Virus record (IMG/VR): IMGVR_UViG_3300025626_000115
Span: 1 to 26,152 of that record
DNA from: a virus
Strand: one strand, 5' to 3'
Length of the DNA: 26,152 nucleotides
The notes below the pieces were generated by a model. The model searched no databases and was not told where the DNA came from. It saw nothing but the letters and a program-made list of their open reading frames with translations. A program made the translations under genes and the position numbers. Below are positions 1 to 8,424 of the stretch, in pieces; within the stretch, counting starts at the first letter, position 1; every line of letters starts with the position of its first letter.

Positions 1-484
1 TATTTATTTAATGGGAGTTGATCAAGAATATTACTTTAGATTTAAAACATCAATGATATCACAGTTTAATGTTGACTACACTCCTAATGGATTAGCAGTT
101 AATAAGGGCGGTAAGCCATCTGCTATTCGTATTACAATGACATTAAACGAAGCATTTATTCATACAAAAGGTGACGTAGACAAGTATCCAACAACAGAAA
201 TACAAAGAGTACCTGAAAAGACAGGACAAGTGTTAGAGGATAGTACTGATAATTCAGACGATAGTGATACTGTTAATAGCAATCCTACTGGACAAATTCC
301 AACAGATGCGCCTGCTCAATCAACTGATGAGGTAAAAGTTACTAATACTTTGCCTACTGGAGAGACAGTAGAAACAACTATACCTATAACTGAAGCAGTT
401 GAGTCAACAGGAAAGACTCAAGCACAACTTGCATCATCAACTAACCCAGTGTATAGATTTCCTGAAGTGCCGGGAGGATTTTAA
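1..484 (+). CDS. 48: Baseplate tail-tube cap protein, gp48-like, C-terminal part (5' end outside window)
   Basis: The reading frame is open to the left edge (codons at 2, 5 and 8 are sense), so the ATG at 11 is probably an internal Met and the gene starts outside the window. The visible part has the end of a folded domain, including SQFNVDYTPNGLAVNKGG and PSAIRITMTLNEAF, a pattern typical of the C-terminal region of T4 gp48/gp54-family proteins that cap the tail tube on the baseplate. About 100 further residues are rich in Thr, Ser, Asp, Glu and Pro and look disordered, ending in YRFPEVPGGF. It sits 2 nt upstream of gp53, which fits a baseplate operon. gp48 is preferred over gp54 because of the YTPNG and long beta-strand pattern and the position next to gp53, but the assignment between these two related proteins is not certain from this fragment. 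Confidence 0.65.
   Translation, partial: IYLMGVDQEYYFRFKTSMISQFNVDYTPNGLAVNKGGKPSAIRITMTLNEAFIHTKGDVDKYPTTEIQRVPEKTGQVLEDSTDNSDDSDTVNSNPTGQIPTDAPAQSTDEVKVTNTLPTGETVETTIPITEAVESTGKTQAQLASSTNPVYRFPEVPGGF
474..479 (+). promoter_or_regulatory. Ribosome binding site of gene 53
   Basis: GGAGGA is an almost complete anti-16S match and lies 7 nt before the ATG at 487, embedded in the last codons of the tube-cap gene. It supports the chosen gp53 start. Confidence 0.7.
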
Positions 485-486
485 TT

Positions 487-1050
487 ATGTCATACTTTAG
501 TAGATTTCCTACAACATCATTCAACGGCGAAGAAGTTGTTGACATTACTCGTAAGGTCGCCCTATCAAATACGACAAGAGATAACGCTCTATCTTATATG
601 AGCTATACAGTAAAAGAGGGAGAAAGGCCTGAAGATATCGCATATTATTACTATGATGATCCGTCATACGCTTGGTTAGTATTAGCATCTAATGATATTG
701 TTGATCCGTATACACAGTGGCCGAAGAATCATAATGCATTTGAAAGATACATTATGAACGAGTATGAGAGCGCATCAGGCACAACAGGATACGCAGTCAT
801 TGAGTGGAGTAAGAACGCTACTCTCGGTGCTAACATCGTAGAGTATAGAACACACTCTGACTCTAATATTAAATTAAATCGAGCCTCCTATCTAGCACAA
901 GACGATAACGAAAAGTCTGAGTTCTATCCAGTTCGAGTATATGATTATGAATTTCAATTAAATGAATCAAGACGAGAGATTGTTTTAACGAATAAATCTT
1001 ATCTAGAAGATATTGATAGTCAATTAAAAGAAGAATTAAATGCCAAGTAG
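487..1050 (+). CDS. 53: Baseplate wedge subunit gp53
   Basis: This 187-aa protein is close to the size of T4 gp53 (196 aa). It starts with MSYFSRFPT and carries the family's LysM-like core, with the characteristic stretch YYYYDDPSYAWLVLASNDIVDP at about residues 56-77, followed by W79 and a charged C-terminus. gp53 binds the gp6/gp25/gp7 wedge and completes wedge assembly so that wedges can join the hub. A strong Shine-Dalgarno (GGGAGGA, 473-479) lies inside the end of the upstream cap gene at good spacing from the ATG. Its last 11 nt overlap the start of the next gene, suggesting coupled translation. Confidence 0.9.
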   Translation: MSYFSRFPTTSFNGEEVVDITRKVALSNTTRDNALSYMSYTVKEGERPEDIAYYYYDDPSYAWLVLASNDIVDPYTQWPKNHNAFERYIMNEYESASGTTGYAVIEWSKNATLGANIVEYRTHSDSNIKLNRASYLAQDDNEKSEFYPVRVYDYEFQLNESRREIVLTNKSYLEDIDSQLKEELNAK

Positions 1051-2377
1051 TCAAGCACAAGCAGGATATTATGTTCTAAGATCATTTAAAGTTCGACCTA
1101 TGTTCGATAATAGGGAGAATACTATATCTGATCACATAGAACTATCAAAGGTCATTGTCAACTGGAGTCTTTCAGAAGCAATGGGTTCGCCTTATATCAC
1201 TGGAAGCGCAGTTATACACGAATCAGATAACCTCCTTGAAGATGTTCCGCTACGAGGAGAAGAAGAAATTGAAATCACTTACGAAGACTTCTATGGTGAA
1301 AGCGCCACGCAGAAATTTTTCCTATATGCTGTTGAAGATATAAGTCCCGAATCATCTATTAATGATAGAATGCAGTCATATACTATTAAGTTTACTACAA
1401 AACAAAAGCTATTCTCTGATACTAAAGAGATAAGAAAGTCCTTTGCTAAACAAAAGATATCACAAATAGTAGAAGAAGTCTATAACGATTACTTCATTAC
1501 AGGCGATAAGTCAGTAGATAAAGAGATAGAGATAGAAGAAACAGATGGAGAACAGACATTAGTCATTCCTTCTCTTAAACCAGACGCCGCAATGCACTTT
1601 TTATCTAGAAGAGCATATAGTAGTGAGAATAATACATCATCATTTAGATTCTTTGAGACAAGAGAGAAGTATTTCTTTTGTACCTTTGAGTACTTAGTGG
1701 GAAAATATGGCGATTTGGGGGAGAAAAGTGGGGAAGAAATAAACCCGTTATTTTTTATATACAACACGTTAAATGACAATACGGGGCCAGGCCAAAGAGT
1801 AGCACAGCAGAGTATAAACGAGATTACATTTCCTTCAAAGGTCGATACATTCTCTGATATAAAGCAAGGCGCATATCGGCGGAGCGTGACAGAACTTGAC
1901 ATCAATACGAGAACCCGTATATCAAGAGACTATGATTACACGACAGAATACGATGGCCATAAGATGCCCGAAGAAGTTTCTCTAACACATTCGCAGGAGT
2001 TTGTCAACACTTATATGCCGACTCACGAGGCGCCTGAACAGATATTGATTACAGACTTTCCACAGATAGGAATGAACGAAGGAAAGGATAATATGCTTCG
2101 GCCTTATCAGCACTTCTATGAGAACTATACAGCAAAGCCTATTACACAGTATCATCTACAACGCAATTCGTTTAATGTTGTTATTAAGGGAAGGATTGAA
2201 CTCTACCCAGGCATGATGATTAATCTTGATTTGATTAAGTTTAGTCATACGCCAGCGGGGACAAGAGAGAAGGATACTCAGCGAAGTGGTAAATATGTAG
2301 TGACTTCTATTACACATTCATTCAATGAAGATAACTATACTCAGTCGATTGGCTTATCTAGGGGTGGCCTAGTATGA
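1040..2377 (+). CDS. 27: Baseplate central hub protein, gp27-like
   Basis: This 445-aa protein is slightly longer than T4 gp27 (391 aa) and is encoded directly before gp5, its expected binding partner. gp27-type hubs form the trimeric ring that joins the tail tube to the gp5 spike. The middle part (ITYEDFYGESATQKFFLYAV and following) and the C-terminus (GKYVVTSITHSFNEDNYTQS, then a short end) match the beta-barrel 'YxVTSITHxF' ending typical of gp27 and phage late-control D hub proteins. The ATG at 1040 overlaps the end of gp53 by 11 nt, and a purine-rich AAAGAAGAA precedes it. The family call rests on position and these motifs; the sequence is divergent from T4. Confidence 0.75.
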   Translation: MPSSQAQAGYYVLRSFKVRPMFDNRENTISDHIELSKVIVNWSLSEAMGSPYITGSAVIHESDNLLEDVPLRGEEEIEITYEDFYGESATQKFFLYAVEDISPESSINDRMQSYTIKFTTKQKLFSDTKEIRKSFAKQKISQIVEEVYNDYFITGDKSVDKEIEIEETDGEQTLVIPSLKPDAAMHFLSRRAYSSENNTSSFRFFETREKYFFCTFEYLVGKYGDLGEKSGEEINPLFFIYNTLNDNTGPGQRVAQQSINEITFPSKVDTFSDIKQGAYRRSVTELDINTRTRISRDYDYTTEYDGHKMPEEVSLTHSQEFVNTYMPTHEAPEQILITDFPQIGMNEGKDNMLRPYQHFYENYTAKPITQYHLQRNSFNVVIKGRIELYPGMMINLDLIKFSHTPAGTREKDTQRSGKYVVTSITHSFNEDNYTQSIGLSRGGLV

Positions 2378-2386
2378 TGAATGCTT

Positions 2387-2440
2387 CGGTTGTTACTTCC
2401 ATTATACCACATTTTTGCGGTTTGTCAACAAATATTTTAA
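2387..2440 (-). promoter_or_regulatory. Minus-strand sigma70-type promoter P1 (antisense to the hub gene end)
   Basis: Read on the minus strand: -35 TTGACA (2428-2423), a 16-nt spacer, -10 TATAAT (2406-2401), then GGAAGTAACAACCG (2400-2387). Both hexamers match the consensus exactly. An AT-rich tract (CCTTTAAAATATTT) lies upstream of the -35. Transcription would start near 2394 and run leftwards, antisense to the end of the hub gene. Two further copies lie at 4034-4088 and 4214-4268. No minus-strand gene is visible downstream. Confidence 0.6.
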
Positions 2441-2453
2441 AGGAATTTGATTC

Positions 2454-4025
2454 ATGAGTGCAGGTTTTGACAATATGTTACACTTTGTGGGAGTCGTAGA
2501 AGACGCTCATGATCTAACAAATAGTGGGCGGGTGAGAGTAAGAGCGTTTGGAATACATCCTCCTCGTGATGCTAAGACGAATCAAGATAGTGTTCCTACA
2601 GCGTATCTTCCTTGGGCCACTGTATTAGATGGAACTTATGGAACGTCTCCTATCATTCCAAGTGTCGGAGACTGGGTGTTTGGATTCTTTATTGATGGAC
2701 GAGAAGCGCAACAACCCATCGTTATGGGCAGACTGCCGGGGATGAATTTGTCATTTCCAGCAGGATCAGGTGAGCCTGGAGAAGACGGATACACTCCACC
2801 AGAAGCGATTCATAAATGGGGCGAGCCACATTGTCATCGATATGTGACTGGAGAAGATGCCGCAATGGGACAGGGAGTGAATCAACGAGTCTATCAGAGA
2901 AGCAATATAGAGACTGCTGATGGGGGATCGTTTGATGAACCCGCTATTATGATGCCTGAGAATAACTATAACAATAGAGTGATTCAATCAAAAGATGGAG
3001 ATAACTTCATTGTATTAGGATCAGCAGAAGATGGAGATGCTAGTGATTACTTTTTGATCTCTCATAGTTCAGGATCAGTTGTACAGATAGATGCTAACGG
3101 CACAGTCTTTATTAAAGCATTTGGAGACAAGTATAACTCAACAGAGGGATGTGAAGCAACGAATGTTCAGGGATCGTTTGATCAGAACATTAGCGAAGAC
3201 TATACATTACAAGTAGGAAAGTCTGGAACGATTAAGATTAAAGGCGACCTTGATATCGAGTGTAATGACTTTAACGTAAGAGCCGCTCGTAATATTAATC
3301 TACACAGCGCACTTAAAACGAATGTATCAGGAGCAGGCATTGGACTTCATGCTACAGCAGATGATATCAATATGGTGGCTCAAGCAAATCTAAAAGCAAT
3401 GACGAACCTGGGAGGAATGTACTTCAAGTGTCTCATGCCGGGTAATATAGCAGGAGATGGAGGAGACTTTCATGTTGACTCATATAAGACAAATATGTAC
3501 AGTCTTGCTTACACGAAGATACATAGTACAGGAACGCCTGCTATATCATCACAGATACTTCCTTATCCAGATGTTGCTCATCTTGGGGTTGACATTAGCA
3601 GTAAGACATCGTTAAGAATTGATGCACTTGCGACTATGAACATTAATGCTTTGGGAATCATGGGAATAAATAGTGGTGCCGCACTTGGAATCAAGAGTAT
3701 CGGAACATTAGATATCCACTCAACAGCACAGCTTGGATTGGGGGCGGGTGCCCTTGTGAATCTAGATGGATTACTTGTGAACATTGGTAACGGAACAGCA
3801 AGTGCTACAGGTGGATTAGCGACAGGAACAGTAACAACGTCTCTTGCTCCTCAGATAGTACAGAGTGCATTAGGAGCAGTTCCTAATATAAGTGTAACAG
3901 AATTAGCCGCTGTTGTCAAGCCACCTGAGATAACTAATTCATTGTTCCCTAAACTGAAGAGATTAATAGAGAGATTGAAGCCGATCATAACAGGAGTTAT
4001 GGGATCGGGAGATAACTTAGATTAA
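2454..4025 (+). CDS. 5: gp5-like baseplate hub spike protein, lysozyme domain absent
   Basis: This 523-aa protein forms the membrane-piercing spike under the hub. Residues about 1-100 are an OB-fold domain like that of gp5/VgrG (FVGVVEDAHDLTNSGRVRVR, then WATVLDGTYG, VGDWVFGFFIDG and QQPIVMGRLPGM). The C-terminal half is rich in beta-helix octads; the clearest run is residues 386-441, seven consecutive 8-residue units of the type SLRIDALA / TMNINALG / ALGIKSIG / TLDIHSTA, the pattern of the T4 gp5 triple-stranded needle. Between them, where T4 gp5 has its lysozyme, there is no Glu-Asp-Thr lysozyme motif; the linker (about 105-180) is Gly/Pro/Asn-rich. The C-terminus ends in a Lys-rich amphipathic segment, LKRLIERLKP. 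AAAGGA (2439-2444) serves as RBS. The gene is bracketed by promoter cassettes P1 and P2. Confidence 0.88.
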   Translation: MSAGFDNMLHFVGVVEDAHDLTNSGRVRVRAFGIHPPRDAKTNQDSVPTAYLPWATVLDGTYGTSPIIPSVGDWVFGFFIDGREAQQPIVMGRLPGMNLSFPAGSGEPGEDGYTPPEAIHKWGEPHCHRYVTGEDAAMGQGVNQRVYQRSNIETADGGSFDEPAIMMPENNYNNRVIQSKDGDNFIVLGSAEDGDASDYFLISHSSGSVVQIDANGTVFIKAFGDKYNSTEGCEATNVQGSFDQNISEDYTLQVGKSGTIKIKGDLDIECNDFNVRAARNINLHSALKTNVSGAGIGLHATADDINMVAQANLKAMTNLGGMYFKCLMPGNIAGDGGDFHVDSYKTNMYSLAYTKIHSTGTPAISSQILPYPDVAHLGVDISSKTSLRIDALATMNINALGIMGINSGAALGIKSIGTLDIHSTAQLGLGAGALVNLDGLLVNIGNGTASATGGLATGTVTTSLAPQIVQSALGAVPNISVTELAAVVKPPEITNSLFPKLKRLIERLKPIITGVMGSGDNLD

Positions 4026-4033
4026 GAAACACT

Positions 4034-4088
4034 GGGTTGTAACTTCTATTATACAGTAAAAAGCCCAGTTGTCAAGAAGTATTTAAAG
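4034..4088 (-). promoter_or_regulatory. Minus-strand sigma70-type promoter P2 (antisense to gene 5 end)
   Basis: On the minus strand: -35 TTGACA (4075-4070), a 16-nt spacer, -10 TATAAT (4053-4048), then AGAAGTTACAACCC (4047-4034). An AT-rich CTTTAAATACTTC precedes the -35. Transcription would start near 4041 and enter gene 5 antisense. An inverted repeat ACTGGG (4031-4036) / CCCAGT (4064-4069) flanks the -10 and the start region. Spacer sequence differs from P1 and P3 while its length is identical. Confidence 0.6.
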
Positions 4089-4089
4089 A

Positions 4090-4222
4090 TTTTTTGATCC
4101 AGGTGCATCATCGATCCAGGTGCATCATCGATCCAGGTGCATCATCGATCCAGGCGTGATGTTGATCCAGGCGTGATGTTGATCCAGGCTCAAGTATAGT
4201 GCCCGGTATACAAAGGTTGCAA
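4090..4222 (-). ncRNA. Possible antisense/noncoding RNA from P3 across the repeat array
   Basis: Transcription from P3 would begin near 4221 and read leftwards through the 17-bp array, giving an RNA with six evenly spaced CCUGGAUC motifs. No convincing minus-strand ORF with a ribosome binding site is present, so any product would be an RNA. No terminator is seen before P2, so the 3' end is unknown and the transcript may continue into gene 5. This is an inference from promoter orientation only. Confidence 0.3.
4096..4189. repeat. 17-bp tandem repeat array, 5.5 units in two subtypes
   Basis: Units start at 4096, 4113, 4130, 4147, 4164 and 4181, with exact 17-bp spacing. The first three are GATCCAGGTGCATCATC, the next two GATCCAGGCGTGATGTT, and the last is cut after GATCCAGGC. 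All share the 8-bp head GATCCAGG. The two tails contain CATCA and its complement TGATG, so RNA from either strand could pair one subtype with the other. Copies within a subtype are identical, implying recent expansion or conversion. The array lies between promoters P2 and P3 in the only large gap of the window. Confidence 0.95.
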
Positions 4223-4268
4223 CTTTTATTATAACACAAATTTGTACATTGTCAATAACTAATTTAAA
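4214..4268 (-). promoter_or_regulatory. Minus-strand sigma70-type promoter P3 (reads into the repeat array)
   Basis: On the minus strand: -35 TTGACA (4255-4250), a 16-nt spacer, -10 TATAAT (4233-4228), then AAAAGTTGCAACCT (4227-4214). The spacer contains the palindrome ACAAATTTGT (4236-4245), and the start region contains the palindrome GTTGCAAC. An AT-rich CTTTTAAATTAG lies upstream of the -35 and overlaps the leader of the + strand peptidase gene. Transcription would head into the 17-bp repeats. Confidence 0.6.
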
Positions 4269-4283
4269 AGAAAAGAGAGAAAT

Positions 4284-6221
4284 ATGTCAATAGAATGTGA
4301 TAACACAACACCGATAGCGGGTAAAGCCGGATCGACTTTGGGGAATGATAGTGCGCTATTTGATAATCTTATTGATGTATCGTCTTTGATTGATGATACT
4401 GATCCATTTGGCGGTAGCGGATTAAATCGTAATTCTATCATTGACTTGACAAATGGATTAAATGGGTTATTAGGAGCATCTGATCTAACTGGATTTGATA
4501 CACTCAAGAAAAGATTCGATCAGTTTCCTCTTACGTTTACTGAGATAGCGGCATTTGCTATCAACAATAATGAAAATGTTGATGATCTTCTTAACGGACT
4601 GAACAACTTTCAGGAAGGAAACGGAGGAAAGAATACTGGATCAGGGGGTGGAAACACTCTGGGGCCCTATGTGGGATATAGTTCAAAAGACGGAGGACTA
4701 GATGGATCAAATAGTAATCTATTAACGGATGCGTTCTTAGGTGGCCTATTAGGAGATCTTGACTTCTACTATAATCAGAATCTAGGAGCATCTATTAGTG
4801 CGGGTACTTGTGGGGCATTCGGAAATGCTTTAATGCAGTTGCTTGGAGTATTTCAATTACTTGATACACTGAATGCTACGTTAGCTAAGATTAAAGATCT
4901 TGATCCTAAGAAGCTTGCTATTCAGTTAGCACAGAAGCTAAAGATCGAAGCCATTAAGAAGAAGATTAAGGACACTATTAAAAAGCTAGTTGAGAAGATC
5001 AAGCGTCAAGTTCTCAAGACTATTAATAGTATTATTCCACAACTCAAGAATATGGGATGTGCGAGTAAGGCCTTCTTTAAGAAGATGAGAAAGAAGATAG
5101 ATCAGATTAATGAGTTCTTCTCTGAAGAGAATATAAAGCGTATTAGAGACGAGATTGATACATTCATTAATAACATGGTGGCCAACTTTCAACGTCTGAC
5201 ACTAGAGAATGCTCTTATGCTTATGTATCAGCTATGCCGATTTACTGAGCAATTACAAGCACTTCTTATGGGAGATGCGAATGAAGTACAGAGAATCGCT
5301 ATTGTAACACAGAACGAGACAAGGGCGTTAGAAGCCGCAGGACTTAAACAGACTATGAAAGCTGTTGAGAACGGAGCAGTACGAGTGGCGCCTGAGGAGC
5401 GTCTCAAGAAGCGTGAGGAGGTCATTAAGAAGAACAACGAAGAGTCTAAGAAGTCTAAAGTTCCTAAAGATCATATCACAGATCCTTGTCCAACACAAGA
5501 AGAGATAGAGATTATTAATAAGATTAGTGAAGCAGGACTAGGCGCTAGTATAACATTTTCTTCTAGTGTTGTCAAGAACAAAGAATGGCAGGATGTTGAT
5601 AACTCTGTATGGAGTAAGCTACTGCGTATTGTTAAAGCGACAGATGGAAAGTATGAAGTTACTAATGGAGTGAAGAAGAAGACTAAGACAACTGCTACTA
5701 TGGGCGGTACATCTAATCATATACATCTAACAGGATTTGCTGTAGATATTTCTATCAATGATGAGAATAGAAAAGATACTATTATAGCCGCCAGTAAAGC
5801 CGGATTCTCAGGCATAGGAGTATATAAGACATTCCTTCATCTAGACGTAGGAACAAGAAGATCATGGGTGGCCGGAGATAAGGGAATTGATATATCTCCT
5901 ACTGAACAGTTCTCGGGCACTGATCTAAGTGATATCAAGAAGATTATGAATAAGCATGATAGTGATGGACATAGAAAGGTTCGTGACGAAGAGGAAGAAG
6001 TTGAGATAGTTGATTTAAGTACAATAGCGCCTGATTCAGTATTAACTCTAGAGCAGATTAATGAGAGAGCGAAGAATGCTAAACAGTCTTCATACGAAGC
6101 AGAACAAATCAAGAAAGAGGTTGATGCATCATATAATAGTCTAGGGAAGAAGTCAATACGTCAGATGACAAAAGAAGAACTAGAAGAGTTTGATAAATCA
6201 GGCAAACGACCTAACGTATAG
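4284..6221 (+). CDS. Hub-associated structural protein with M15-type zinc peptidase domain
   Basis: This 645-aa protein has three parts. Residues 1-200 are Gly/Asn/Leu-rich with no recognised domain. Residues about 200-390 are strongly helical and Lys-rich (LAIQLAQKLKIEAIKKKIKD and on). Residues about 400-535 resemble M15/DUF882-type peptidoglycan peptidases: SNHIHLTGFAVDIS fits HxxGxAxD with H481 and D488 as likely zinc ligands, and GIGVYKTFLHLDVG gives H519-x-D521, followed by RRSW. Such enzymes cut the peptide part of peptidoglycan. The tail (about 540-645) is acidic/charged and probably coiled. Lying directly after the lysozyme-less gp5, it probably supplies local wall-degrading activity at the tail tip. 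AAAAGAGAGA precedes the ATG. Peptidase fold is fairly sure; location in the virion is inferred. Confidence 0.75.
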   Translation: MSIECDNTTPIAGKAGSTLGNDSALFDNLIDVSSLIDDTDPFGGSGLNRNSIIDLTNGLNGLLGASDLTGFDTLKKRFDQFPLTFTEIAAFAINNNENVDDLLNGLNNFQEGNGGKNTGSGGGNTLGPYVGYSSKDGGLDGSNSNLLTDAFLGGLLGDLDFYYNQNLGASISAGTCGAFGNALMQLLGVFQLLDTLNATLAKIKDLDPKKLAIQLAQKLKIEAIKKKIKDTIKKLVEKIKRQVLKTINSIIPQLKNMGCASKAFFKKMRKKIDQINEFFSEENIKRIRDEIDTFINNMVANFQRLTLENALMLMYQLCRFTEQLQALLMGDANEVQRIAIVTQNETRALEAAGLKQTMKAVENGAVRVAPEERLKKREEVIKKNNEESKKSKVPKDHITDPCPTQEEIEIINKISEAGLGASITFSSSVVKNKEWQDVDNSVWSKLLRIVKATDGKYEVTNGVKKKTKTTATMGGTSNHIHLTGFAVDISINDENRKDTIIAASKAGFSGIGVYKTFLHLDVGTRRSWVAGDKGIDISPTEQFSGTDLSDIKKIMNKHDSDGHRKVRDEEEEVEIVDLSTIAPDSVLTLEQINERAKNAKQSSYEAEQIKKEVDASYNSLGKKSIRQMTKEELEEFDKSGKRPNV

Positions 6222-6223
6222 CA

Positions 6224-6231
6224 TATAAATA
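6224..6231 (+). promoter_or_regulatory. T4-type late promoter box TATAAATA before gene 25
   Basis: TATAAATA is an exact match to the T4 late promoter recognised by the gp55 late sigma factor. It lies in the 30-nt gap before gene 25 and would give a leader of roughly 15 nt carrying the RBS AAAGGATAAA (6238-6247). It is the only exact copy in an intergenic position in this window. Confidence 0.6.
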
Positions 6232-6251
6232 CACTATAAAGGATAAAAGAA

Positions 6252-6659
6252 ATGTCATTAACGCCCCGCACAAGATCAGCAGAGTTCTTCTCAGATTTCA
6301 CAAGGAATCTAGAGCAGATACCTGGCCGTAAGGATCTGAGTAGACGTATTAACGAGAATGCTGTAAAAGAGAGTATACATAATCTCGTTATGACGGATCG
6401 TGGAGAGCGTTTATTTCAGCCTAATATAGGATGTGATATACGAGGATCATTGTTTGAGAACATAGATCCCAATACTATATTACTACTGAAAGAGAACATT
6501 CGATACACGATTACTACATATGAACCAAGATGCAATCTTCATAACGTAGAAGTTGAAGCTAACATAGACACAAACGAACTGCGAGTAAGAATAGTATTCT
6601 CTGTGATAAATACTAGTAACACTTCAGAACTTACAATTGATCTTAATAGGGTAAGATAG
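6252..6659 (+). CDS. 25: Baseplate wedge subunit gp25
   Basis: At 135 aa this matches T4 gp25 (132 aa) and the GPW/gp25 family, which starts sheath polymerisation and belongs to the conserved wedge core found in all contractile injection systems. The family pattern is clear: an N-terminal helix and RRINENAVKESIHNLVMTDR, then the conserved GERLFQPNIGCDIRGSLFEN (about 51-70), and a C-terminal beta sheet LHNVEVEANIDTNELRVRIV. The conserved E52-R53-x-F/x-P-x-x-G segment forms the turn used in wedge contacts. Gene 6 follows after 4 nt. It has its own late promoter box just upstream. Confidence 0.95.
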   Translation: MSLTPRTRSAEFFSDFTRNLEQIPGRKDLSRRINENAVKESIHNLVMTDRGERLFQPNIGCDIRGSLFENIDPNTILLLKENIRYTITTYEPRCNLHNVEVEANIDTNELRVRIVFSVINTSNTSELTIDLNRVR

Positions 6660-6663
6660 ACAC

Positions 6664-8424
6664 ATGGCCAACTTGTCACCAATAAAAAATTTAGACTTCG
6701 CTGAAACTAAAGAAGCACTCAAGACGTTTCTAAAGAATCAGGATCGTTTCAAGGACTTTGACTACGAAGGCTCTAACACGAATGTGCTACTTGATGTACT
6801 ATCATATAATACGTTCTATAACAACTACTATTATAACATGATGATATCCGAGATGTTTTTGGATAGTGCCTCTCAACGTAATAGTGTATTGTCTCACGCA
6901 AAGGAACTTAACTATCTTCCTACAAGTAGACGTAGTGCAAGTGCTAAAGCAACGATTAGTATAGTCGCCCCCAATCTAGACAGTAACTACTTTAACATTC
7001 CTGCTAATACTAAGTTCATTGGACGATGTGGTAACAAGACATATAATCTATTAACGGATAAAGCATATACTGCTGTAAGATCTAATGGTGATAATAGTCT
7101 ATATGTCATTGAGAATGTCGATCTATTTGAAGGCCGTGTTATTAACGAAACTCTCACGATATCTAATACTACTCTCAGTAATGATGCTATTGATACTCGG
7201 TCTCTCAAGATCACTGTTAATAACGAGACGTACACATATAGAAGTGATATCTTTGGTGTTTCAGCGACTGATAAAGTCTTCTATCTACAACCTGAGAATG
7301 ATGGAAAGTATTCTCTACAGTTTGGACAGAACAAGTTTGGAGTACAGCCTACAGCAACTGATATCATTAAAGCAGAGTATAGAATAGCTTCTGGCCCTTC
7401 CGCTAATGGAGTGACTTCATTGACGATTGGCGCTTTCGGCGGAGCGAGTTCTATAACTGTGAATGTCACGACTGCTACATCGGGCGGATCGATGGCTGAA
7501 GATATAGAGTCAATTCGGACGTTCGCTCCTAAGGCGTTTCAAGTACAAGAGAGAGCAGTAACGAAACGAGACTACGAGACTCTACTACGTTCTCGCTTTC
7601 CTAATATTCAAGCAATCTCTGTATATGGTGGTGATGAAGTTGATCCTCCTCAGTTCGGAAAAGTAATTATCTCAGTTGATGTAACTGGTGGTGAAGGTGC
7701 GGCTGACTATGAGATTGCTAACTTCAAGAACTATCTAAAGGATAAGACTCCTCTTACTATTGAGCCTGTCTTTGTTGTTGCTAAGTTTCTATATGTTAGT
7801 GCTAACATTAGTGTTGCGTATGATCCTAATGTAACTAATAAGTCGCCAGCCCAGATTCGATCTGAGTTGAATGACTCTATTATAGCATATCAGAATACAA
7901 ACCTCAATGACTTTAATAAGACACTTCGTCAATCAAGACTAGCGGCATTCCTTGATACTGTTGACGGATCTATTGTATCTTCTGATATTGTGGCCAAGCC
8001 TATTATTGAGTATGTTCCTACACTTAATCTAGCAACAAGTCCATCATTCTCCTTTGAGTCTGAGTTAGTTAAACCTTATCCGTTTGATGACGTAGAAGGC
8101 TTTACTACATTCAAGCCTGCTGTATCATCTAGTAAGTTTACTGTTGATGGATCACTTGTATCAGCAAAGGATGATGGTAAAGGAAACATTATGCTAGTGA
8201 CTGGTGATACTACTATTGAGAGTGTGTTTAAATCGTCTGTTGGAACTGTTGATTATGCTACAGGCGCCATCAAGTTGTCTAATCTAAACATTAGTTCATT
8301 CCAGAATCAGGCAATTAAGTTTACTGCTAACACAACGAACAAGGATATTCGTCCTCCAAAAGATCGTATCATCGTGATTCGTGGTGAAGATGTTCTTATA
8401 ACTGTATCTCCATTGGAATCATAA
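6664..8424 (+). CDS. 6: Baseplate wedge subunit gp6
   Basis: This 586-aa protein (T4 gp6 is 660 aa) forms the inner iris ring that holds the wedges together. The N-terminus is diagnostic: FDYEGSNTNVLLDVLSYNT followed by FYNNYYYNMMISEMFLDSAS and the 'SVLSHAKELNYLPTSRRSA' region (about residues 36-100), as in gp6/J-type baseplate proteins. Further on, TFAPKAFQVQERAVTKRDYE and LLRSRFPNIQAISVYGGDE (about 284-325) match the conserved core domain of the Baseplate_J/gp6 family. It sits between gp25 and gp7, exactly the T4 module order, with 4-nt and 3-nt gaps, so these wedge genes are surely cotranscribed. Confidence 0.93.
   Translation: MANLSPIKNLDFAETKEALKTFLKNQDRFKDFDYEGSNTNVLLDVLSYNTFYNNYYYNMMISEMFLDSASQRNSVLSHAKELNYLPTSRRSASAKATISIVAPNLDSNYFNIPANTKFIGRCGNKTYNLLTDKAYTAVRSNGDNSLYVIENVDLFEGRVINETLTISNTTLSNDAIDTRSLKITVNNETYTYRSDIFGVSATDKVFYLQPENDGKYSLQFGQNKFGVQPTATDIIKAEYRIASGPSANGVTSLTIGAFGGASSITVNVTTATSGGSMAEDIESIRTFAPKAFQVQERAVTKRDYETLLRSRFPNIQAISVYGGDEVDPPQFGKVIISVDVTGGEGAADYEIANFKNYLKDKTPLTIEPVFVVAKFLYVSANISVAYDPNVTNKSPAQIRSELNDSIIAYQNTNLNDFNKTLRQSRLAAFLDTVDGSIVSSDIVAKPIIEYVPTLNLATSPSFSFESELVKPYPFDDVEGFTTFKPAVSSSKFTVDGSLVSAKDDGKGNIMLVTGDTTIESVFKSSVGTVDYATGAIKLSNLNISSFQNQAIKFTANTTNKDIRPPKDRIIVIRGEDVLITVSPLES

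Follow-up and report, generated by a model that had tools for sequence, protein, structure and literature searches.

The window analysed here is the complete IMG/VR virus record IMGVR_UViG_3300025626_000115, 26,152 bases in length and probably a fragment of a larger genome. Its plus strand carries a T4-like baseplate operon (tube cap, gp53, gp27-like gene, gene 5 hub, M15-type peptidase, gp25, gp6 and more genes, some of the names being assigned by position). Three promoter-like sites, P1, P2 and P3, lie on the minus strand at the two ends of the gene 5-like hub gene and oppose the operon. The features of the locus are as follows, TGn being the extended -10 element.

1040..2377, plus strand: gp27-like tail gene, antisense to the predicted P1 transcript (PHROG 350, labelled tail protein only; the name gp27 comes from position and comparison)
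2401..2428, minus strand: P1, TTGACA-N16-TATAAT with TGn, between the gp27-like gene and the hub gene; predicted start at about 2394
2454..4025, plus strand: gene 5-like baseplate hub gene (PHROG 430, baseplate hub subunit and tail lysozyme, E-value 1.8e-34), antisense to the predicted transcripts of P2 and P3
4048..4075, minus strand: P2, TTGACA-N16-TATAAT without TGn, in the gap between the hub and peptidase genes; predicted start at about 4041
4228..4255, minus strand: P3, TTGACA-N16-TATAAT with TGn, in the same gap, the conserved copy; predicted start at about 4221
2388..2400 (P1), 4035-4047 (P2) and 4215-4227 (P3), minus strand: start-region motif RRAAGTNNCAACC, downstream of each promoter
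4284..6221, plus strand: M15-type peptidase gene, on the upstream side of P3 (Pfam M15 matches slightly under the curated cut-off)

Each site matches the two hexamers at 12 of 12 letters with a 16-nucleotide (nt) spacer, exactly as a sequence-only reading of this DNA had described, and there is no other perfect TTGACA-N16-TATAAT on either strand of the record, for which an extra scan took spacers of 15-18. Against the three observed, about 0.014 perfect sites are expected from base composition and none appeared in 100 dinucleotide shuffles. The sites were also correctly placed in the only two gaps of more than 50 nt between large plus-strand open reading frames (ORFs), which measure 76 and 258 nt, and the start-region consensus was recovered at all three copies; at P3 the start region bears the motif AGTNNCAAC. 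A CTTTWAAWTA tract, attributed to every copy, is exact upstream of the -35 hexamer of P1 and, read by eye, approximate at P2 and P3. When the sites were compared with T4-type early promoters, UP element (scored on A/T content alone), -35, TGn and -10 were all found in P1 and P3, and P2 was without TGn.

Conservation was assessed at the end of the hub gene in related phages. A hub protein search gave 15 loci and an alignment search 147 relatives, of which the best 80 (79 loci) were kept. Fourteen of the 79 were excluded as duplicates of one phage, as cut within the hub or as short hub matches, and of the 66 analysed (65 loci and the window) four had no readable gap, leaving 62; these counts are of sequences, some of them near-identical, and not of independent events. 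The gap after the hub is at least 60 nt long in 33 of the 62 loci, the window included, and at most 42 nt in the other 29. An antisense site with no more than one mismatch of 12 was present in 29/33 of the loci with the longer gap, at hub identities of 52 to 100%, and the remaining four (45% identity) carry TTGACA-N17-TACTAT with TGn, at two mismatches. The 29 loci with short gaps had no site with one mismatch or fewer between 60 nt upstream and 240 nt downstream of the hub stop; they were also searched within the gap itself, where a 28-nt site scarcely fits, and it is the flanking-range scan that carries this negative.

Spacers in the relatives are 16 or 17 nt long. Across 20 distinct sites, identity is 1.00 in the -35 hexamer, 0.98-1.00 in the -10 hexamer and 0.33-0.57 in the spacer core, although these sites were chosen by hexamer match and the unbiased figure is 29/33. 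Of these 20 sites, 18 have TGn, and the AGT and CA of the start motif do not vary across the 15 distinct sites with a 16-nt spacer. The conservation of the hexamers in relatives, on which the earlier proposal had been made to depend, is thus borne out. Constant hexamers with divergent spacers, and copies that all point one way, support selection for strong, leftward-directed promoters of the host sigma70 type. Palindromes were noted within the spacers of P3 (ACAAATTTGT, 4234-4249) and of a site in the L076 gap (ATAGGCATGCCTAT), an operator-like placing between the hexamers.

The number of copies varies while their direction does not. A gap may hold one promoter (for example in L064), two (the window, L067 and L068, the last laid out like the window), four (L079) or five (L076), and all copies share one orientation. 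A P1-type site upstream of the hub is found in 6 of 42 distinct upstream regions, including that of the window. The window and five long relatives together span 316 kb and contain 17 strict sites (TGn and at most one mismatch); 13 of these fall in the stretch from 100 nt before the hub to 2.2 kb after it, 12 of them antisense. Codon-block shuffles gave 0.1 to 0.27 strict sites per contig; the six contigs are related, so that a binomial figure for this concentration is overstated. The other four strict sites are three in the sense direction at the left ends of contigs G011 and G008, those of G008 lying near genes for the late coactivator, helicase loader and gp32, and one antisense site at G015 55065. 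In the wider collection, 13 of 15 stretches with a perfect N16 promoter plus the start motif were hub loci. Another scan of the collection for promoter and start motif returned 46 stretches; 28 of these were read, and they comprised 5 hub loci and 23 scattered promoters of other phages. Within the window, one further site lies outside the gaps:

5547..5575, minus strand: TTGACA-N17-TATACT with TGn, 11/12 letters, inside the peptidase gene; also in contigs G005, G006, G010, G011 and G013, which are near relatives of the window

Comparison across these relatives shows the sites to be conserved, predicted sigma70-type promoters of T4-early architecture (A/T-rich upstream tract, TTGACA, TGn and TATAAT) that oppose the late genes at gene 5. 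The long relatives indicate what lies ahead of them. Left of the operon is a minus-strand block, which in G014 comprises gp4, an SNase-like gene, gp2, tail tube, gp26, gp51 and others. The gp4/gp48 gap contains TATAAATA-type late boxes in both directions in four of the five long contigs (the four in which this gap was read), so that neither block needs sigma70 sites for its late expression. The type of promoter, together with the T4-late-type boxes serving the genes of the long relatives, supports the early antisense firing that had been proposed, and we infer strongly that host polymerase would transcribe leftward from these sites early in infection. No promoter-strand gene was found between hub and gp4 in the long contigs by automatic calls of at least 45 codons, small overlapping minus-strand ORFs aside. 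The idea that the promoters drive the minus-strand gp4 cluster was rejected, as that cluster has its own late-type box.

The closest precedent is the T4 origin oriE, which the earlier reading overlooked. In the T4 record oriE is annotated at 79355 within gene 5, in the minus direction, with a primer RNA complementary to the gene 5 transcript, and repEB and repEA lie antisense in the same gene. At the position of oriE we read TTGATG-N17-TGTTATAAT (79349-79377), which we take to be the oriE promoter. According to PMC3016281, oriE seems to rely on an early promoter and is situated close to a transcription switch; the same source holds priming at oriE to be less understood than at oriF and oriG and terms the oriE repeats ill defined. 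The 12-nt repeats of T4 oriE look like codons of the gp5 beta-helix octads. The long contigs share the gene order and strands of the T4 neighbourhood, with gp2 and gp4 on the minus strand followed by 53 and 5 on the plus strand, gene names having been assigned in one of these contigs; at the sequence level, both systems have an early sigma70-type promoter antisense to gene 5, with the extended -10 TGTTATAAT in T4. The window has direct repeats nearby, a possible counterpart of the evenly spaced direct-repeat cluster of T4 oriE. The differences are that the promoters of the window lie in the gaps at both ends of the hub, in tandem and with a shared start motif, whereas that of T4 is inside gene 5; that their -35 is a perfect TTGACA; that no counterpart of repEA or repEB was found in this group; and that the repeats of the window are non-coding, 17 nt long and not conserved:

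4096..4188: iteron-like 17-nt direct repeats with six GATCCAGG cores, between P2 and P3

T4-like phages outside the group were compared with it. In gene 5 of 13 such phages (T4 included), TGN-TATAAT with a -35 of at most two mismatches occurs five times antisense and never in the sense direction. The five sites are in T4, Shf125875, KP17, HTVC008M and Mosig, those of the first three at one common position. Pelagiphage HTVC008M has three strict sites in 147 kb, one antisense in gene 5, one antisense at gp4/gp48 and one elsewhere, and the sole strict site of pelagiphage Mosig is antisense in gp53. All five strict sites of methylophage Melnitz lie between the gene at the gp27 position and gene 5, three of them in tandem leftward. 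In Melnitz-3 (L185 1143-1322; MZ577098.1 72881-73060), three perfect tandem promoters stand about 75 bp apart, opposing annotated tiny ORFs that are possibly not genes. Strict sites number one in S-PM2, none in S-WAM2, one in S-SKS1 and four in P-SSM2, but gene 5 was not located in these cyanophages and they provide no test; one of the P-SSM2 sites is on the sense strand in the island before gp25.

By analogy with T4, we interpret the locus as an oriE-like early antisense promoter region whose RNA possibly helps to start replication, and give this reading a probability of about 0.45. Host RNA polymerase would fire the promoters directly after infection, and the leftward RNA would cross gp5, gp27, gp53 and gp48 toward the gp4/gp48 divergence. 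Tandem copies would raise the output of RNA. As at T4 oriE, the antisense early RNA could prime leading-strand replication, which is the less certain step, and late transcription from the opposite strand would later switch the early promoters off. The fourfold-site AT skew was compared between 1-2377 and 4284-8424 wherever both sides offered 60 or more countable sites; the left side of the hub exceeds the right in 22 of the 25 loci at 60% identity or above. GC skew was tried as a sign of replication and gave no clear picture.

Several observations weigh against an origin at this locus, and oriE status is not proven. The analysis turned up no RepEA/RepEB-like ORFs, no A+T-rich unwinding element and no conserved iterons: no frame antisense to gp53, gp27 or the hub is open with a conserved start (judged by eye) in the relatives of 60% identity or more; over the 80 nt past 35 predicted starts, the mean AT percentile is 0.49; and the iteron-like repeats are poorly conserved. 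The 17-nt GATCCAGG repeats recur in L031, a near relative of the window, and a related set of CCTGGATC repeats lies between the two promoters of L068, but repeats were not seen in the other hub gaps of relatives that were read, including that of L064 at 99% identity. The predicted antisense RNA is C-rich, which disfavours R-loops. The skew shift is not diagnostic, since it is also seen in 13 of 17 loci of the clade at 51% identity. In this sister clade the gap is all but missing, and the only sites lie inside genes, none of them close to the end of the hub. Among the outside phages, 8/13 have no such site in gene 5, and strict sites are absent altogether from 13 of the 20 named phages; the five of RB49-like SFHK24 all lie away from gene 5, and two of the five Melnitz sites are on the sense strand of the island before gene 5. 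In the sister clade (L093-L131) we also noted recurrent antisense TGn sites within the hub gene, such as a TTGACA-N18-TATACT that precedes the end of the match by about 800 nt; coding constraint as well as promoter selection could explain them.

A second conserved signal lies within the gp27-like gene:

1649..1673: 25-nt element conserved at the nucleotide level, about 0.73 kb downstream of P1 in the antisense direction

Synonymous codon conservation peaks in the gp27-like gene at 1505-1675 (ranks 1, 7 and 8 of non-overlapping windows); peaks in gp6 are also strong (ranks 2, 5 and 6). The two 12-nt runs at 1649-1673 are the only ones of at least 12 nt at 93% conservation or more in six genes, each compared across 26 to 36 sequences. 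The 22-mer ACTTCTCTCTTGTCTCAAAGAA occurs in 47 IMG/VR stretches, in every case within a gp27 homologue (54 to 100% identity). The element is kept in the sister clade too, which has no promoter near the hub end. Folding of the conserved stretch as RNA was rejected as a candidate: the energy was -3.2 kcal/mol over 189 columns, with double changes in 2 of 16 pairs among 15 sequences.

Other explanations of the promoters were weighed against the oriE-like reading. The first proposal for the locus was that the leftward RNA keeps late genes silent early in infection. More broadly, the RNA, or the act of transcribing itself, might silence the hub, gp27, gp53 and gp48 or tune the amount of hub against other baseplate parts. 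The promoters are strong by consensus, conserved and directly face late genes; a late-promoter-like box (ATAAATA or CTAAATA) stands head-on to P3 in the same gap in three of the five long contigs (G015, G008 and G016), and antisense RNA is known in T4-like phages. The example is CfrI of cyanophage S-PM2 which, according to PMC2984593, concerns another locus (psbA and a homing endonuclease gene) and an RNA seen experimentally, whereas the transcripts here are predicted from sequence. General silencing leaves unexplained that only one of the 17 strict sites, at G015 55065, is antisense elsewhere in the late region. Moreover, T4-like late genes are off early because the late factors they require are lacking, and so would be silent anyway. 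No terminator-like site was found in the two gaps of the window; a scan of 1-6300 found four against 2.9 expected, one of them on the minus strand (306-284). With no conserved RNA structure in the downstream stretch tested and no conserved antisense ORF either, silencing of the late genes is unsupported, and we regard antisense regulation as unlikely. The promoters could instead begin a leftward mRNA that encodes a small antisense protein or serves the minus-strand gp4-SNase-gp2-gp26-gp51 cluster, which lies 3 kb further on in the same direction. T4 does have repEA and repEB antisense in gene 5, and the gp27-like gene has a 59-codon stretch with few antisense stops at its strongest synonymous conservation. 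The minus-strand ORF there (1489-1905) was nevertheless rejected, as it has stops in many relatives and no conserved start by eye, and the cluster carries its own TATAAATA-type box at gp4/gp48 in four of the five long contigs; such an mRNA seems improbable.

A PeSL cassette consists of an early promoter and a stem-loop terminator, and such cassettes of T4-type phages were reportedly described by Arbiol in 2010 and Comeau in 2014. P1, P2 and P3 might be mobile or relict cassettes of this kind, kept in a plastic gene 5-gene 25 region by recombination and not by any function there. Copy number does range from 1 to 5, P1 is present in some relatives and not in others, the P1 of L029 has the spacer that its relatives typically carry in P3, and the two gap copies of L067 have the same spacer. 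Small genes, some of them on the strand opposite to the late genes, form an island between genes 5 and 25 in Mosig and HTVC008M. The cassettes of PMC4503421 are likewise early promoter units of variable copy number in plastic places. They differ from the sites described here in that the gaps of the window have no stem-loop terminator and that location and direction are conserved. Sites are kept in 29/33 gapped loci although no promoter-strand gene was called from hub to gp4 in the long contigs, and the lack of decay in the hexamers makes a relict or mobile cassette less likely; we consider this explanation distinctly doubtful. Chance or a coding artefact is barely credible. A TTGACA-N18-TATAAT about 4 kb away in the gp6 coding sequence does appear to be a by-product of codons, and P1 lies within an open mini-ORF, but P2 and P3 are outside large ORFs, shuffles yield no such site, and the spacers vary where the hexamers do not.

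The mini-ORF around P1 is a feature of its own:

2374-2457: mini-ORF of 27 codons, in the first gap, overlapping the gp27-like stop and the hub start, with P1 within it

This overlap suggests possible translational coupling. A mini-ORF of 24 to 31 residues ending at the hub start is present in 18 of 36 distinct relatives without P1, and the peptides of this length are mostly hydrophobic. Rfam models gave nothing that reached the gathering score in the window, and nothing up to an E-value of 0.1 in 1-6300.

Among the titles and abstracts listed by the literature searches, none reports early promoters running antisense at gene 5 in marine T4-like phages, and PMC12753301 deals with two pelagiphages of other types and has no bearing here. 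P1 and P3 share with T4 early promoters all four of the elements UP, -35, TGn and -10 (PMC2988021). The T4 early -35, which is GTTTAC-like, differs from the consensus TTGACA found here, and the AGT..CA start motif marks this marine group. Gap-limited annotation of promoters, as in the Melnitz paper, can overlook strong antisense promoters inside late genes.

The oriE-like reading can be tested in the cultured marine phages HTVC008M, Mosig and Melnitz. That separate lineages keep strong early promoters in antisense orientation within one and the same module would point to a trait of long standing in the T4 superfamily. A more specific and speculative version, which we think has a small chance of being correct, is that marine T4-like phages share a promoter-array origin, in which one to five perfect host-type promoters, antisense to the hub and active immediately upon infection, produce an RNA that meets the almost unvaried 25-nt element in gp27 (1649-1673), is cut or annealed there and starts the leading strand. 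If this were true, the baseplate module would carry a hidden replication element within late coding sequence, one that predates the split between T4, the pelagiphages and the group described here.

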